Numbered from the stretch's first letter, positions 35,468 to 41,461 are shown. The stretch: 64,000 nt of DNA from Fibrobacter sp. (GCF_017551775.1 NZ_JAFZKX010000110.1:1-64000); one strand, 5' to 3'. Notes: generated by a model from the letters alone, not told the origin. Program-made: numbers and translations.

Positions 35468-35514
35468 AACAGCTGCCGACGCCGATGGCGCCTTTGATTT
35501 TTTTTGGGGAAAGT

Positions 35515-35781
35515 ATGAACTTTGCAAAAACAACCGCATGTGCTTTTTTAGCGCTTGTCGCAATTGCATCTTTTGCTGCAAAACCTGTAGGTAGAGGCAA
35601 ACTGAATTCGCTTAAAGAAACATTATTGAAAAAAGGAAAGCCGTTCCAGATAAAATATGCTGGTGGCATCGACATGGGTGAGTACATGGATGATGACGAG
35701 GATTCTGAAAGGACTGTTTTCTTGCTTGATTCTCTAGTGAAAGCGCAAAGAAACAATCCTCTTAAAAAACAGGGGCGTTAA
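35515..35781 (+). CDS. Small exported hypothetical protein
   Basis: 88 residues from ATG 35515, GGGGAAAG upstream. Signal peptide (FLALVAIASFAA), then a basic stretch (KETLLKKGKPFQIKY) and an acidic patch (EYMDDDEDSE). It ends 3 bases before the next start, so the two are probably co-expressed. No family recognised. Confidence 0.6.
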   Translation: MNFAKTTACAFLALVAIASFAAKPVGRGKLNSLKETLLKKGKPFQIKYAGGIDMGEYMDDDEDSERTVFLLDSLVKAQRNNPLKKQGR

Positions 35782-35784
35782 CAT

Positions 35785-36240
35785 ATGAGAATTTTTGTTT
35801 CTATTTTGCTTCTAACCATCTCTAGCGCATTATGTGCGGAGCGAAATCTAGAGTGTTCCTCGTTTGAAAAAAATGCAACAGTGATGTCGGATGATGTAAT
35901 TCGATCGTTGAGCAAGGTTGTTGACGATTCACTTTACTCAAGATGGAAAGATAAAAACTTTATTGTTGACTACAGGCATTGGTATGCTTGTGCTTGTGCC
36001 TGTGAGGATAAATATGAGCTTCAGTCAAAAAAAAATCAAAATTTAAGTTGGATTTTTAATTATTGTGCTCTCCCGGATTCAATGGTTGTCTTTTATGAGG
36101 ACAGCTTGGAATACATGATTTTAAGGAAAAATGAAAAACTTTATCTTATGATAGAAAAACTAAAAGATGAAATTGACAGATACGATAGTCTTTTATGTGA
36201 TTCTGCTGCATCTTTTGGGCGCGGCTTTATTTTTAAATGA
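35785..36240 (+). CDS. Cys-rich exported hypothetical protein
   Basis: 151 residues, signal peptide (VSILLLTISSALC). Seven or more cysteines, including a CACACEDK run, suggest a disulfide-bonded periplasmic protein. AT-rich codon use marks the start of the low-GC island. No family recognised; a periplasmic immunity role is one possibility given the Rhs debris downstream. Confidence 0.6.
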   Translation: MRIFVSILLLTISSALCAERNLECSSFEKNATVMSDDVIRSLSKVVDDSLYSRWKDKNFIVDYRHWYACACACEDKYELQSKKNQNLSWIFNYCALPDSMVVFYEDSLEYMILRKNEKLYLMIEKLKDEIDRYDSLLCDSAASFGRGFIFK

Positions 36241-36292
36241 ATAAATACATCCTTCTGTTTTTTTTAACTCCAAATAGAGAGAAATAAAATCT

Positions 36293-36394
36293 ATGAAGTT
36301 TTTTTGGGGGGATTTCTTTCTTTTGATTGCGATAATTTGTGCAATAAAGACAAAACATATTGGTTATAATGGATATAATATGGTAGAACATTAA
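36293..36394 (+). CDS. Very small membrane peptide or gene remnant
   Basis: 33 residues (MKFFWGDFFLLIAIICAIKT…), with a GAGAG site upstream. One hydrophobic helix. It could be a real small protein, but more likely the 5' fragment of a decayed exported gene, since protein-like sequence continues in another frame (LEWSEPKKNGRLHYGEE) after it. Confidence 0.3.
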   Translation: MKFFWGDFFLLIAIICAIKTKHIGYNGYNMVEH

Positions 36395-36470
36395 GTGATC
36401 TCGAGTGGTCTGAACCGAAAAAAAATGGTAGATTACATTATGGGGAAGAATGATAGTTACCGAGAATTTT

Positions 36471-36995
36471 ATGATGATAATGAAATCTGCAGAGAGAGGG
36501 ATAAAAATTTTTATCACGCTTTTCTTTATCTTTTTGATGCTTCTAGAATACTCTTGCGAAAATGGGGGCCGTTATCCCGTTATGAAAGAGAAGCAATTAG
36601 TTGAAGATATGTTCAAAGAAAAAAAGATAGAATGTGAAATAGCGGCAAAGGAAATGTCCTGGCTCGAAGAACCTATAGATGTATCTTTTTGGAAAGTATT
36701 TATCCTCGGCTATCATGGAATGTACCGCGTATATGATGTTCTGTATACAAATGAATTGGGAAGAAAAAATAAATTCATTACATATAAGTTTCCATTCACA
36801 TATGGACTTGATGTTCCTGTTGAAGAGACCTCTCTTCTCTTTGAAGAAACTCGCGATGCGATTAAGATTTATTATGATAAAGAACCTGTCGGTGGCTTTG
36901 TTGTTGAAAACAACCCTTTTTCCAAAAAGATTCTATTTGAGCAAAAGAGTAATTTCAATGATATTGTAAGAACTGATGAAGCGTGCTATTACTGA
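36471..36995 (+). CDS. Exported protein of the NPFSK family (unit member A1)
   Basis: 174 residues if started at ATG 36471; ATGs at 36450 and 36480 are alternatives. Hydrophobic leader ending in a lipobox-like LLEYSC. Family marks shared with the genes at 38102 and 39057: an early CEI/CKIEG strand (here ECEIAAKEM), a Tyr-rich strand (AIKIYYDKEPVG), then NNPFSKKILFEQ, and a C-terminal Cys. Periplasmic or lipid-anchored. Followed 14 bases later by a small membrane protein. Function unknown; immunity protein suspected. Confidence 0.6.
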   Translation: MMIMKSAERGIKIFITLFFIFLMLLEYSCENGGRYPVMKEKQLVEDMFKEKKIECEIAAKEMSWLEEPIDVSFWKVFILGYHGMYRVYDVLYTNELGRKNKFITYKFPFTYGLDVPVEETSLLFEETRDAIKIYYDKEPVGGFVVENNPFSKKILFEQKSNFNDIVRTDEACYY

Positions 36996-37009
36996 AAGAA
37001 AGGATGACT

Positions 37010-37339
37010 ATGAAAGAAAAAAGTTTAATTGATAGGTTATTGTCCTTGTCTGCATCAGTAATGCTGTTTTTATTTTCATTGCGGTATATTGTATGTTTCT
37101 TTTATTTTGAAGAAAATACGTTTTGGTTTACTATACTTTGTTTTTCTGGATTTCTGTACTTGTTGTCTTCAATTCTTTTGATGCTTGATTTCTTTAATGT
37201 GAATTTAAAATGTGTAAAAGGAAAATTTTGGCTTCCCCTGTTTTTGGCAGGTTTTATTCCAAAGTGCCTTATCCTTTTTCTTGTGCCCGCTTTTCAACTT
37301 GCCCCTTTTTTCCTTGAAGAACTTAAATTGTTCGGTTAA
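37010..37339 (+). CDS. Small three-to-four-span membrane protein (unit member B1)
   Basis: 109 residues from ATG 37010, with AAAGGA 5 bases upstream. Helices SASVMLFLFSLRYIVCFFYF, the LYLLSSILLMLDFFNVNL segment and FIPKCLILFLVPAF. The SS(I/V)..L.(D/E)…(N/G)V pattern recurs in the genes at 38659 and 39572, so the three are related. Always placed after an NPFSK-type exported gene. Confidence 0.6.
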   Translation: MKEKSLIDRLLSLSASVMLFLFSLRYIVCFFYFEENTFWFTILCFSGFLYLLSSILLMLDFFNVNLKCVKGKFWLPLFLAGFIPKCLILFLVPAFQLAPFFLEELKLFG

Positions 37340-37440
37340 AAAATGAAATGTTTTTCTACTATATTTAACCTTAATTGAAAAATATAAAATTATTCATTGG
37401 AATAAGGAATCGAATTTGCCCCGAGCAGAATTTTAAGCAG

Positions 37441-37487
37441 GCTTGTTCTTGTTTGGTTAATTGTGTTTATTGGTTGGTGTTAATTTT
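37441..37487 (+). pseudogene. 47-bp remnant of a unit-B gene 3' end
   Basis: Nearly identical to 38874-38920, the last codons of the 38659 gene; both encode LVLVWLIVF(I/V)GWC followed by, or near, a stop. No upstream remainder of the gene is recognisable here. It indicates duplication and deletion within the array. Confidence 0.7.
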
Positions 37488-37552
37488 AAGGCTGTTGAGG
37501 ATTGTGCGAATGAAATTCCGATTAAATAAGAAAAACATTGGAGAGCCAGTAC

Positions 37553-38032
37553 GTGAGAAATATTAAAAAATTTTCTTTTGGAAAGAAAATAATTTATTTA
37601 GTGCTTTTTTTTCTTGTCATTATTTCGTGTTTTATTTTTAAAATAAAACAATTTTCATTTTGCATGGACTTAAAGAATTGTCCAATTGACAATGGAATCT
37701 TATTGTATGAAAATTATTTGGACTCATTAGAGTTGTTTATTGTAAAAGGTGGAGAAGGGAATGCAGTGGATTATTTTTTGTATAATGGATTTCAAATTTA
37801 TTGTGTTTCCGATACATCCTCTTCAATATTGAACCCTCAAGGAGTGTGGGATGGCAAATTTGAAGGTTCAAGTCTTGTTTATTTAAGACCATATATTGCA
37901 GATGATGTTTTATTACTCAGAATTAGGAAAAAGTTGGATTTATTTTATTTGGTCGAAATAAATGAAAACTTGGTCGATGTTACATACCAGTTCTTCACAA
38001 CTCATAGTTGTGGTAAAAAGTTTGTTAACTAA
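37553..38032 (+). CDS. Membrane-anchored hypothetical protein
   Basis: 159 residues from GTG 37553, chosen because GGAGAG lies 7 bases upstream; the TTG at 37538 lacks a site. One N-terminal span (IIYLVLFFLVIISCFIF) after a basic segment, then a mostly extracytoplasmic domain with several Cys. Not obviously in the NPFSK family. AT-rich. Confidence 0.55.
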   Translation: MRNIKKFSFGKKIIYLVLFFLVIISCFIFKIKQFSFCMDLKNCPIDNGILLYENYLDSLELFIVKGGEGNAVDYFLYNGFQIYCVSDTSSSILNPQGVWDGKFEGSSLVYLRPYIADDVLLLRIRKKLDLFYLVEINENLVDVTYQFFTTHSCGKKFVN

Positions 38033-38101
38033 CTAAATAAAATTTTGTATTTTCCAATTATGACAATATAGAGGAAAATTAATTAAAGACTACTGTTTTT
38101 G

Positions 38102-38662
38102 ATGAAAGCGACTGTTTTTAACAAATATGTTTATCTGTTTTGGGAAAACCTCACTAAAATAGGTGTGGTTTTGTTTACGCTGGTATATGTTTTCTTTTTA
38201 GGCATGTGTTGCGGGACCGAATACTCTGAGGGACTGCCTTACACTCTGTTGAAGTCTCGAGACACTGATGGTCAACTTTCCTCTTGTGAAATTGAAGGGA
38301 GAAAAATATATCATTACAAGAAAACGAAAAAGATTGATGGCTTGCAATATTATTATCGAGGCGATAAAGACGTTAAGGATGAGTGGGGGCTTGTGTATGA
38401 AGATGAAAAAGGTCACCATCCGTTAGTATCTGTTTTAGTCCCCTTTCAACAATCGTCTGGTTTAGTGTTTTTCGTTTTCGATAAGCCCAATGAGTATACG
38501 GTCTATTATTATTTAAACAAGGAGGGTGATCAAATTGACAGTATTTGGGTTGACGTGCAGCCCTTTTCGAAAGAAGTTGTGCTCAGAAAATTAAATCCGC
38601 CTGATTTTAACGAACCGTATATGGAGAATGCGACTTGTTTTGTAGATAGGGGGCAAAGATGA
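38102..38662 (+). CDS. Exported protein of the NPFSK family (unit member A2)
   Basis: 186 residues. N-terminal span (IGVVLFTLVYVFFLGMCCG), then SSCEIEGRKIYHYKK (compare VCKIEGKKVQQ in the 39057 gene), a Tyr-rich strand TVYYYLNKEGDQI, VDVQPFSKEVVLRKL, and a Cys near the end. Stop overlaps the start of the 38659 gene by ATGA, showing tight coupling with a unit-B membrane protein. Confidence 0.65.
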   Translation: MKATVFNKYVYLFWENLTKIGVVLFTLVYVFFLGMCCGTEYSEGLPYTLLKSRDTDGQLSSCEIEGRKIYHYKKTKKIDGLQYYYRGDKDVKDEWGLVYEDEKGHHPLVSVLVPFQQSSGLVFFVFDKPNEYTVYYYLNKEGDQIDSIWVDVQPFSKEVVLRKLNPPDFNEPYMENATCFVDRGQR

Positions 38663-38922
38663 TATCAAAAATATTGTCCATTCTGTGTATTTTAGCGCTG
38701 TGTGTCGATGCTGTAATTGAGATTCAGCATTTTTTGTTGGACGCCTCTTTTGATAGTTTTAGCTTAATTTGGGTAATGCGTTGTTTTGTTATTCTGCTTA
38801 TGATTGTTTCGGCTGTAGCCCTGTTTGTTGAAACGATAAATGTACGTGTTCGGTTTTTACCAAGAAAGCTATGGCTTGTTCTTGTTTGGTTAATTGTGTT
38901 CGTTGGTTGGTGCCAATTGTAG
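38659..38922 (+). CDS. Small membrane protein (unit member B2)
   Basis: 87 residues, three hydrophobic helices (KILSILCILALCVDAVIEI, the VMRCFVILLMIVSAVALFVE segment and LWLVLVWLIVFVGW). Shares the VSAV.L..(E/D)..(N/G)V core with the 39572 gene. Starts within the stop of unit A2. Confidence 0.65.
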   Translation: MISKILSILCILALCVDAVIEIQHFLLDASFDSFSLIWVMRCFVILLMIVSAVALFVETINVRVRFLPRKLWLVLVWLIVFVGWCQL

Positions 38923-38970
38923 TGCCCGCCGAATTGATGCAAAAATTGCAACTTTAAATCGTAAAAAGCT

Positions 38971-39005
38971 TATAAGCTCCTGAAAATTTCCTATGATTGG
39001 AGTGG
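38971..39005 (+). pseudogene. Rhs-gene scar 1
   Basis: Encodes KLLKISYDWSG, then drifts into unrelated sequence and a stop. The same phrase recurs at 40320-40352 and 41350-41378 (KRLKISYD…). At the larger copy it is continuous with an Rhs core end, so this is taken as a short leftover of an Rhs gene. Confidence 0.55.
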
Positions 39006-39056
39006 TGTTACAATTTTAAACCATAATCATATTGTATGTGGATTAGTATTTAATTT

Positions 39057-39575
39057 ATGAAAATATTTGAAGCCATCCTTAAATTTTTAATAGTACTTGG
39101 TTTTATTATTGGAACAATTTTGTGGTATTTTATTTTGCCCGGAACAGATAAAGGGGTCGATAACTTCCTCAAATCTATTCCATCAGAAGAAAAGATGGAA
39201 AGAGTATGTAAAATTGAAGGCAAAAAGGTGCAACAAAACAACGAGAGATTACCTCCTAGTATGTTGAACAGATACTTTAATGGAGGTCATTGTTTTTATA
39301 TAGAAAGTTCGTTTTATTATACAGATACTACAAAGTCGAACGAGTTTGGCGAAATTTTAAACTTTCGATCTCCGCTCATTTGTAATGGCCTTGGTGGTCT
39401 TTCAAAGATTGCCATTGAGGAATACCCTGACAAATTTATTTTCTATTACACAAAAGAATCACAGGATGGTTTCTCCGTTATTCATAACCCGTTTTCTAAA
39501 GAAATCGTATTTGAGCAGGTATCTGATTCAGAATTGAACAAAATTGAAAATAAACTTTGTGAGTTTGGAATATGA
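39057..39575 (+). CDS. Exported protein of the NPFSK family (unit member A3)
   Basis: 172 residues. N-terminal span (ILKFLIVLGFIIGTILWYFIL), VCKIEGKKVQQ, a Tyr-rich strand (KFIFYYTKESQDG), then IHNPFSKEIVFEQVSD and a terminal Cys (ENKLCEFGI). Closest relative in the window is A1. It begins 52 bases after an Rhs scar and overlaps unit B3 by ATGA. Confidence 0.65.
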   Translation: MKIFEAILKFLIVLGFIIGTILWYFILPGTDKGVDNFLKSIPSEEKMERVCKIEGKKVQQNNERLPPSMLNRYFNGGHCFYIESSFYYTDTTKSNEFGEILNFRSPLICNGLGGLSKIAIEEYPDKFIFYYTKESQDGFSVIHNPFSKEIVFEQVSDSELNKIENKLCEFGI

Positions 39576-39856
39576 AATTGAATGTTTTGACAGATAAGGT
39601 TCTTTCTGCTCTATGTTTTTTTGTGTTGTCTATAGATGCAATAAGGGATTTGTATTTTTATATCTGTTATCGCGAACAATTTTTTGCAAAGGTTCTTTGT
39701 GCTTTTTCAAGCTGTTTTTATCTTGTCTCTGCCGTGTATCTTGTTCTTGATCTATTCGGTGTAAAGAACGTTCGTTCATATATGTGGATGTGTTTTTTTG
39801 CATTTGGTCTTGTACTAGATGCGCTGTATTATTTGATTGCTATTGTTGCTAGTTGA
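39572..39856 (+). CDS. Small membrane protein (unit member B3)
   Basis: 94 residues with helices VLSALCFFVLSIDAIRDLYF, the FYLVSAVYLVLDLFGV segment and MWMCFFAFGLVLDALYYLIA. The VSAVYLVLDLFGV core matches B1 and B2. Translationally coupled to A3 by the ATGA overlap. Confidence 0.65.
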   Translation: MKLNVLTDKVLSALCFFVLSIDAIRDLYFYICYREQFFAKVLCAFSSCFYLVSAVYLVLDLFGVKNVRSYMWMCFFAFGLVLDALYYLIAIVAS

Positions 39857-39869
39857 CCTTAGATTATAT

Positions 39870-39905
39870 AAGTGGATGGAATATTCTCCGCTTGAGAACG
39901 CGTGA
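39870..39905 (+). pseudogene. Rhs-gene scar 2
   Basis: Encodes KWMEYSPLENA then a stop. This matches the EFMQYPPLENT phrase of the larger Rhs remnant at 40350-40392, with about 20 nearly identical bases (CTCCGCTTGAGAA). Placed just before another small membrane gene. Confidence 0.55.
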
Positions 39906-39942
39906 ACTATTTTAATCCGATTTTCGGAATGGGAACTTCAGA

Positions 39943-40241
39943 ATGTTTTATTTTGTGATTTATTTTATTGCAAGTATTCCTTTTATTGCCGTGTTTCAAA
40001 TTCATGTTTTCGCATTGAATAAAACGAAGAAATTTAAGTTCTGGCATTTTTTTTACAAATATTAACAGCCCCTATTAGTGTTTTTTCTTTTTTTGGTCCA
40101 GCTTTTTTAGGACTTTGTATAAATGATTCTGAGATTAGAGAAGGAATTGCTATTTACACGACTTCCTTAGTTAGTCTGTTTAACATGAGCGTTTTTTTTT
40201 ATGAATTAGTTAAATATGGAAAAGAAAAATATAAGAAGTAA
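39943..40241 (+). pseudogene. Small membrane protein split by a -1 frameshift at a T8 run
   Basis: The first frame gives MFYFVIYFIASIPFIAVFQI… and stops at 40063-40065. The -1 frame after the run of eight T at 40047-40054 continues …LQILTAPISVFSFFGPAFLG … to a stop at 40239-40241. Joined, they make a plausible 100-residue protein with three spans and a basic tail (KEKYKK). The site T-TTT-TTT is a classic slippery heptamer, so programmed or transcriptional slippage is possible. Otherwise it is a decayed gene. Confidence 0.55.
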
Positions 40242-40299
40242 CTGGATTATGTAGAAGTTCAATAAGAGAGCCGCATGGTAGCTATATCCATAGCTGAAT

Positions 40300-40813
40300 T
40301 TTCCCCAAAAGGTCGCCCCAAGCGCCTGAAAATTCCTATGATTGGAGAGGTATGCCTGTTGAATTCATGCAATATCCTCCGCTTGAGAATACGGGAGTAT
40401 CCGGTGATACTTTGTTCAGGCTGACGGTTGCCTACGACTACCGCAGTTTCGGCGAGCAGGTTGTTCTCTCGGAACCTGCCGACAAGGTGACCGAGAACTT
40501 CACCGGCAAGGAACTGGATGACGAAACCGTACCGAACTACTTCGGCGCGAGATATCTCGACCCGATTGATGCCGATGCCACTTATATAGACAACTATTCT
40601 GGTCAAATTGAGTGTCAAATAACAGGAAAGTTTAATGGCAATTCTAGTCCTGCACAGAATTTGCTACATGAAATGGTTAGTCATGGCATTCCAATAATGT
40701 TAGATGACAGAGATTCCACAGCATCTGCTGTTGAAGAGGAACAGAAGGCTGTTGATGGTGTTTTCCCTGTTGATGTACCTGATCATATAATAGACCGACG
40801 TTATGAGGAATAA
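40300..40813 (+). pseudogene. 3' end of an Rhs-repeat gene with a short HEx3H C-terminal domain
   Basis: From about 40300 the frame reads SPKGRPKRLKI, then a one-base deletion in the AAATTCC stretch (AAATTTCC in the sister copies) shifts it. After the shift it continues SYDWRGMPVEF … YPPLENT … LTVAYDYRSFGEQV … NFTGKELDDETVPNYFGARY, which is the conserved Rhs core end. Near 40575 base composition changes from GC-rich to AT-rich, and about 75 new residues follow with LLHEMVSHGIPIM, an HEx3H motif like metallopeptidase tips. No intact upstream Rhs exists in the window, so this is an orphan tip. The stop overlaps the next start (TAATG). Confidence 0.75.
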
Positions 40814-41343
40814 TGAAAATCTTTCTACAGCTAATCATACTTGCTTCTTTAGGTGAGTTTGCATATTGCAAATGTGTTGGCCGAATAGAGGACAATATCC
40901 CTAGTGGTATTATGCTTAAAATACAAAGCAATCAAAAAGATGGGCAATGCTGGACGAATGCAGTTGGTTATATCTATCAATTAACGGAAAACGAAAACAA
41001 TATATTTATAAAACTGTTGCCCCCAACAGGTAAAATAGTTGGTAATAATACGAAGGAAGTATGGCATGTAGAATTTCACCGTATAAAACCAATTCAAAAA
41101 AACGATTATGTTGTTCTTGAATGGAAAAATATGGGGAAAAAGGCGAATAATCAACATGATTTTCGTAGAGATAATTTCGCTCCTATCGATAGGATAAAGA
41201 AGGGACAAAAATTGATTATAGATATACCTTGTCTCGACGAAAAAACTGCTAAAGAAGCGCGGCCTTTTAATATATCAAAACCTTTGTATCCGACGCTTCG
41301 TTGTGAAATTGCTCCGGCTGACAAGGATTATTTTAGCGAATAA
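40813..41343 (+). CDS. Exported protein coupled to the Rhs tip; probable cognate immunity protein
   Basis: 176 residues. Starts in TAATG with the Rhs-tip stop, GAGGAA just upstream. Signal peptide (LQLIILASLGEFAYC), mature part with several Cys and a basic middle, no membrane span. Position directly after a toxin-like Rhs tip is typical of immunity genes, and a periplasmic location would fit a peptidase acting there. No family recognised; the immunity role is inferred from context. Confidence 0.65.
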   Translation: MKIFLQLIILASLGEFAYCKCVGRIEDNIPSGIMLKIQSNQKDGQCWTNAVGYIYQLTENENNIFIKLLPPTGKIVGNNTKEVWHVEFHRIKPIQKNDYVVLEWKNMGKKANNQHDFRRDNFAPIDRIKKGQKLIIDIPCLDEKTAKEARPFNISKPLYPTLRCEIAPADKDYFSE

Positions 41344-41349
41344 AAATTC

Positions 41350-41461
41350 CAAGCGCCTGAAAATTTCCTATGATCGGAAAAAGGTCTTGCCCGTTTACGA
41401 TTTGACGGTAAATGATACCCTGTACAAGATTAAGCCGAATCGGATATATTCGGCCGATAGT
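41350..41461 (+). pseudogene. Rhs-related scar 3
   Basis: Encodes SKRLKISYDRKKVLPVYDL and continues for about 37 residues, then runs antisense into the 3' end of the lipoprotein gene at 41462. The first 27 bases repeat the other Rhs scars. Marks the right edge of the low-GC island. Confidence 0.5.

Follow-up and report, generated by a model that had tools for sequence, protein, structure and literature searches.

Three A-B gene pairs in a decayed Rhs array of Fibrobacter are probable orphan immunity modules against an Ntox44-like toxin domain

Introduction

Orphan immunity proteins that protect against foreign toxins are known (PMC10539506, PMC12247911). In Serratia, an orphan Rhs immunity protein protects against a foreign Rhs toxin (PMC10539506), and in Staphylococcus aureus the membrane protein pair ExiC-ExiD confers immunity to EsxX and is also carried as orphans (PMC12744356). 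Among the toxin domains, Ntox44 was described by the motifs DxK, GNxxxG, and DxxxD in a survey that gives no immunity family for it (Zhang et al. 2012, PMC3482391), and it carries the label ribonuclease in a later survey (PMC9134191).

Here, we analysed one strand of 64,000 nucleotides from Fibrobacter sp. (GCF_017551775.1 NZ_JAFZKX010000110.1:1-64000; the window), in which three two-gene units each combine an anchored exported protein (A) with a small membrane protein (B). A sequence-only reading had proposed that this exported-plus-membrane module could be a two-component immunity system or another self-contained envelope module. Our comparison with related loci (L numbers) and genomes (G numbers) leads us to regard the A-B units as probable orphan immunity modules directed against Rhs proteins that end in an Ntox44-like toxin domain, the toxin itself having been lost. 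Orphan immunity and membrane immunity pairs are a known kind of system, and the A and B families are new.

Results

Three homologous A-B pairs on separate branches

The ORF calls recovered all six genes at the starts given by the sequence-only reading (Table 1), and the ATGA coupling that it had noted in two pairs was found at A2/B2 and A3/B3. The A1 and B1 genes are separated by a gap of 14 bases, or overlap instead if B1 starts at the GTG at 36983. The three A proteins are mutually homologous, and so are the three B proteins, as had been proposed: against shuffled sequence, the A scores were 125 for A1-A3 (z 16.5), 92 for A2-A3 (z 10.8), and 63 for A1-A2 (z 5.5), the B scores were 101 for B1-B3 (z 9.4), 68 for B1-B2 (z 5.0), and 60 for B2-B3 (z 4.7), and control pairs with unrelated neighbours stayed below z 2.5 in the same shuffling test. 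The motifs ascribed to A held in part, with PFSK present in all three proteins and IEGxK exact only in A2 (IEGRK) and A3 (IEGKK), A1 having CEIAAKE.

In the A tree, the window copies fall into three separate branches, with relatives at L066/L067, L063/L064, and L065. Since A1, A2, and A3 lie on different branches and each has relatives in other genomes, the units are not recent tandem duplicates. Pairwise dN/dS values of 0.16-0.32 for A2, B2, A3, and B3, which as pairwise values cannot separate the lineages, suggest constraint on these four genes.

Table 1. Features of the window and of the related loci (positions in the window unless a locus is named)
Feature	Position	Strand	Remarks
W, short exported protein	35485..35781	+	partial relative in L072 array, 47% over 53 aa
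Y, exported protein	35785..36240	+	relatives in Rhs arrays L072, L104; protein identity 68%, 52%
A1	36471..36995	+	anchored exported immunity-like protein
B1	37010..37339	+	small protein, spans predicted from hydropathy
Scrap of lost B gene, 3' end	37440..37483	+	44 bp, 88.6% identical to B end in L064
X, anchored exported protein	37538-38032		164 aa; lies between B1 and A2; regions read contain no relative
A2	38102..38662	+	protein identity 74-77% with A of L064 and L063
B2	38659..38922	+	ATGA overlap with A2; identity 78-79% with B of L064 and L063
Rhs scar, LKISYDW core segment	38979..39006	+	93-96% identity to Rhs ORFs of L064, L072, L104
A3	39057..39575	+	identity 60% with A of L065
B3	39572..39856	+	ATGA overlap with A3; identity 57% with B of L065
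Frameshifted copy of the 95-aa membrane protein behind an Rhs tip in L064	39956..40248	+	79.6% over 294 bp; match changes frame
Rhs scar, LKISYDWRGMPVEF segment	40318..40367	+	88-97% identity to Rhs ORFs of L064, L072, L104
Rhs fragment, core piece and end of a different tip (HEMVSH)	40352..40813	+	core protein match 70-79%
Z, exported protein	40813..41343	+	overlaps Rhs fragment end
Rhs scar	41345..41378	+	85-94% identity to Rhs ORFs
Y relatives	L072 10452-10925; L104 11103-11543		
Stretch with Z relative	L072 8587-10433		in L072 array
A fusions	L080 9464-10654; L083 5536-6711; L090 11130-12368		fusion partner ~215 aa, lipoprotein-like, own membrane span
Ntox44 tip, then membrane-anchored protein	L116 922-2040; L117 1249-2238		Ntox44 match at curated level

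Predicted architecture of A and B

The predicted make-up of the pair agrees with the exported and multi-span proteins described by the sequence-only reading, with A consisting of an N-terminal anchor and an exported domain and B of three predicted membrane spans. The N-terminus of A is a hydrophobic helix preceded by basic residues, from which the rest of the protein is predicted to lie outside the cytoplasm. In the AlphaFold model of A1 (built from 12 sequences, pLDDT 78.6), a helix at residues 2-30 is followed by a beta-rich domain, and a fold search with this model returned no significant match in the PDB or in viral structure libraries. All 48 A genes of the regions read encode a Cys near residue 55, and a C-terminal Cys is found in the full-length unfused A proteins, including the four whose alignment rows were trimmed before it; these two conserved Cys residues suggest a disulfide and, with it, a periplasmic location. 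A division in which A alone would be a lipoprotein and A accompanied by B a membrane-anchored protein was considered, but the lipobox signal is too irregular to support it.

Sequence searches gave no match above chance for A in Pfam, NCBIfam, or the PDB and no match above the cut-off for B in Pfam or NCBIfam; GAD-like and MGTA_C matches were weak, concerned single members, lay below the cut-off, and were dropped. Fused forms were found for both families, with A placed behind another lipoprotein-like domain at L080, L083, and L090 and B placed ahead of a Z-like domain at L073, L076, and L077. In the regions read, the lipoprotein-like partner of the A fusions was seen only in fused form.

Distribution and association of the two families

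The family sample comprised 111 genomes, of which 80 belong to the genus Fibrobacter. Profiles built from the three window copies detected A in 26 and B in 24 of the 111 genomes, and a 20-row A profile detected 47 genes in 25 genomes, all of one genus (25 of the 80 Fibrobacter genomes); the search with the latter profile found no A in the other genera of the phylum. The nearest named relatives of the window genome are rumen Fibrobacter MAGs, and plasmid searches with A1 and with the toxin tip described below gave no match.

Within the regions read, B directly follows 36 of the 48 A genes, usually overlapping them, 11 A genes stand without B, and one last A gene is truncated close to the end of its contig. 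B adjoins A in every case (36/36) and was never found alone, so the two families do not occur mostly apart, an outcome that would have spoken against the sequence-only reading. On the A tree, about three events of gain or loss suffice to explain where B is present. The pairs occupy many different sites, often among housekeeping genes such as those for topoisomerase or helicase.

At five loci, A directly follows a shared Rhs tip

At four loci (L064, L072, L084, and L104), A is immediately preceded by an Rhs ORF, in which the Rhs core (TIGR03696) was matched just before the C-terminal tip with 39.8-57.8 bits (cut-off 32.5). All four Rhs ORFs carry the same tip, with 40 invariant columns. A search with this tip across the 111 genomes found two further places only, namely a tip remnant at L068, located 23 bases before an A gene, and a distant tip outside the genus, in G105, with the gene of an unrelated lipoprotein behind it. 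All five sites of this tip in the genus have A immediately downstream, in the immunity position; four of these loci, from different genomes, defined the tip family and the fifth did not. The family genomes hold about 155 Rhs core matches among the matches listed, and if five A genes were distributed at random over 155 Rhs sites, every one of the five tips would be hit about 1 time in 1e9. The tip-adjoining A genes are only 5 of the 48, and of these toxin-linked genes one (L064) is accompanied by B and the other four are not. The gene order at L064 alternates as RHS-A-B-RHS-154 aa-RHS-95 aa-RHS-137 aa.

The A-linked tips gave no Pfam match, including to the Ntox44 model (PF15607). The tip is strongly related to the G105 tip (hhalign E 4e-8), and the latter matches Ntox44 weakly (E 5e-4, 21.4 bits, under the cut-off of 24); a direct comparison of tip and Ntox44 was not significant, and only the bridge via G105 holds. 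Like Ntox44, the tips carry DxK (4/4) and GNxxxG (3/4, L084 having GNAIWD) in this order; unlike Ntox44, they do not keep DxxxD. The A-linked tip can thus be said to resemble Ntox44, bridged by the tip from the other genus. Its structure, predicted from two sequences, reached a pLDDT of 31.

Separately, two Fibrobacter genomes carry Ntox44 tips at the curated level (L116 and L117, Table 1), and the homologous membrane-anchored proteins behind them are a candidate for another Ntox44 immunity family. Homology of A to these proteins, or to the lipoprotein behind the G105 tip, was rejected (profile comparison probability 0.3%).

Decay of the Rhs array around the window units

Sequence comparison indicates that the island at about 35485-41380 is an Rhs tip/immunity array like the toxin-bearing ones, but in a decayed state, with several immunity-like genes in a row and a broken Rhs fragment among them. 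The location next to Rhs debris claimed by the sequence-only reading was confirmed by an Rhs core fragment at 40422-40566, which is the genome's only Rhs match (19.2 bits, below the cut-off), and by three short scars of 28-50 bp from the LKISYDWRGMPVEF part of the core (at 38979, 40318, and 41345). The scars lie close to the start of displaced tips at L064, L065, L072, and L104. No Rhs core above the cut-off and no matching tip were found in the window genome, a draft of 114 contigs from which a repeat may have been lost; as the genome has no intact Rhs gene or tip and the array is decayed, the A-B copies are best read as orphans.

The stretch comprising A2-B2 and the following scar is 84% identical to L064 over 887 bp, and the right flank of the island (885 bp) is 99.4% identical to L072, which places the toxin-bearing array of G087 at the same site. 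On its other flank, G087 shows the same neighbours, followed by Y and a piece of Rhs at the contig end. In G027, the flanking genes for an outer-membrane protein and a pyruvate-formate-lyase-like protein lie about 100 bp apart and the island is absent, and in G020 two other genes occupy the site.

Y is probably another orphan immunity gene. Its family is small and, in the regions read, occurs only in Rhs arrays or their debris. Z probably encodes the immunity protein for the HEMVSH tip; relatives of Z occur in the L072 array and also as the C-terminal part of the 471-aa B fusions of L073, L076, and L077. The HEMVSH fragment and Z (40352-41343) form a second toxin-immunity relic, and the B-Z fusions resemble a combined immunity protein.

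Discussion

The gene context of A points most readily to an immunity protein for this Rhs tip that acts outside the cytoplasm, and this assignment is well supported by its position directly downstream of the tip at every site in the genus. B probably serves as an accessory and not as an obligatory half, since it never leaves A, yet most toxin-linked A genes lack it. The proposed two-component immunity system is supported only in part, strongly for A, with B present at one of the five toxin-linked loci. Mechanistically, the N-terminal helix, or in some members perhaps a lipid, would anchor A, and the beta domain of A, probably stabilised by a disulfide and facing the periplasm, would bind the incoming toxin before the toxin acts. 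Where present, B with its three spans, usually co-translated with A, may hold or assist A at the inner membrane, and orphan copies with diverged A domains could protect against tip variants of neighbours. A bolder version seems to us rather unlikely: here an obligate A-B complex in the inner membrane would catch Ntox44-like toxins in the periplasm with its exported part, as the first immunity system for this class, and stacks of diverged orphan pairs would let rumen Fibrobacter resist several variants delivered without type VI.

A lesser but real chance belongs to the view that A alone confers immunity and that B is a separate membrane gene travelling with it, either a second immunity protein against a membrane-acting toxin or a regulator. 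The toxin-linked A genes without B fit this view, as do the three genomes in which B is fused to Z, which is itself immunity-like, yet B is never without A and usually overlaps it, and the few gains or losses in the A tree mark B as a stable companion.

We consider it improbable that the pairs are an envelope module unrelated to toxins, with a stress or surface function for example, that was caught in Rhs arrays by recombination. Most A-B pairs do stand beside housekeeping genes, in places conserved across many species, and such orthologous pairs could serve otherwise than in immunity; a random choice of Rhs sites, however, would hardly put A behind every tip of the genus, and the patchy presence and the diverged multiple copies at many sites are typical of orphan immunity. 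There is likewise little likelihood that the window copies are merely non-functional relics. Broken neighbours (the 95-aa gene, the Rhs fragment, and the B scrap) and a genome without the matching toxin are what decaying debris would show, but all six ORFs are intact, the start/stop overlap is kept in two pairs, and the dN/dS values, although pairwise and unable to separate lineages, argue against decay. Orphan immunity against the Ntox44-like tip is thus the reading that we prefer.

With this reading, A becomes a candidate family of antidotes to Ntox44-like toxins, a class that had no immunity protein in the 2012 survey, and the anchored exported nature of A hints at the place where it encounters the toxin, a clue to the toxin target. 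The findings also suggest that cellulose-degrading bacteria of the rumen retain arrays of diverged antidotes once the weapon is lost. Rhs core genes are common in Fibrobacter, though the type VI sheath gene VipB (PF05943) occurs only in other genera of the family: a profile search of the 111 genomes found it in 12, none of them of the genus Fibrobacter. The presence of Rhs genes in a genus without this sheath gene raises the question of how its Rhs toxins are delivered.

Among the described systems, ExiC-ExiD is similar to A-B, as compared by description, in consisting of two co-encoded membrane proteins that protect against a toxin from outside and are known as orphans; both of its proteins are polytopic and the toxin is another one, whereas here A is exported with a single anchor and only B is polytopic. 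The Serratia Rhs immunity gene (PMC10539506) shares with A the position directly downstream of an Rhs tip and the existence of an orphan copy, but the Serratia proteins act singly and counter NADase tips that arrive by type VI secretion, whereas the present case involves a pair, another tip, and a genus without the type VI sheath gene. The rAID arrays of Bacteroidales (PMC12247911) similarly contain orphan immunity genes that have diverged from the cognate ones; they are recombinase-associated and encode SUKH proteins, whereas the window island encodes exported and membrane proteins, and no recombinase was noticed among its ORFs. Finally, polyimmunity loci (Zhang et al. 2012, PMC3482391) resemble the island in their stretches of unlike immunity genes and their fused immunity domains, and differ in being described as never interrupted by toxin cassettes, whereas the window retains an Rhs fragment and scars.
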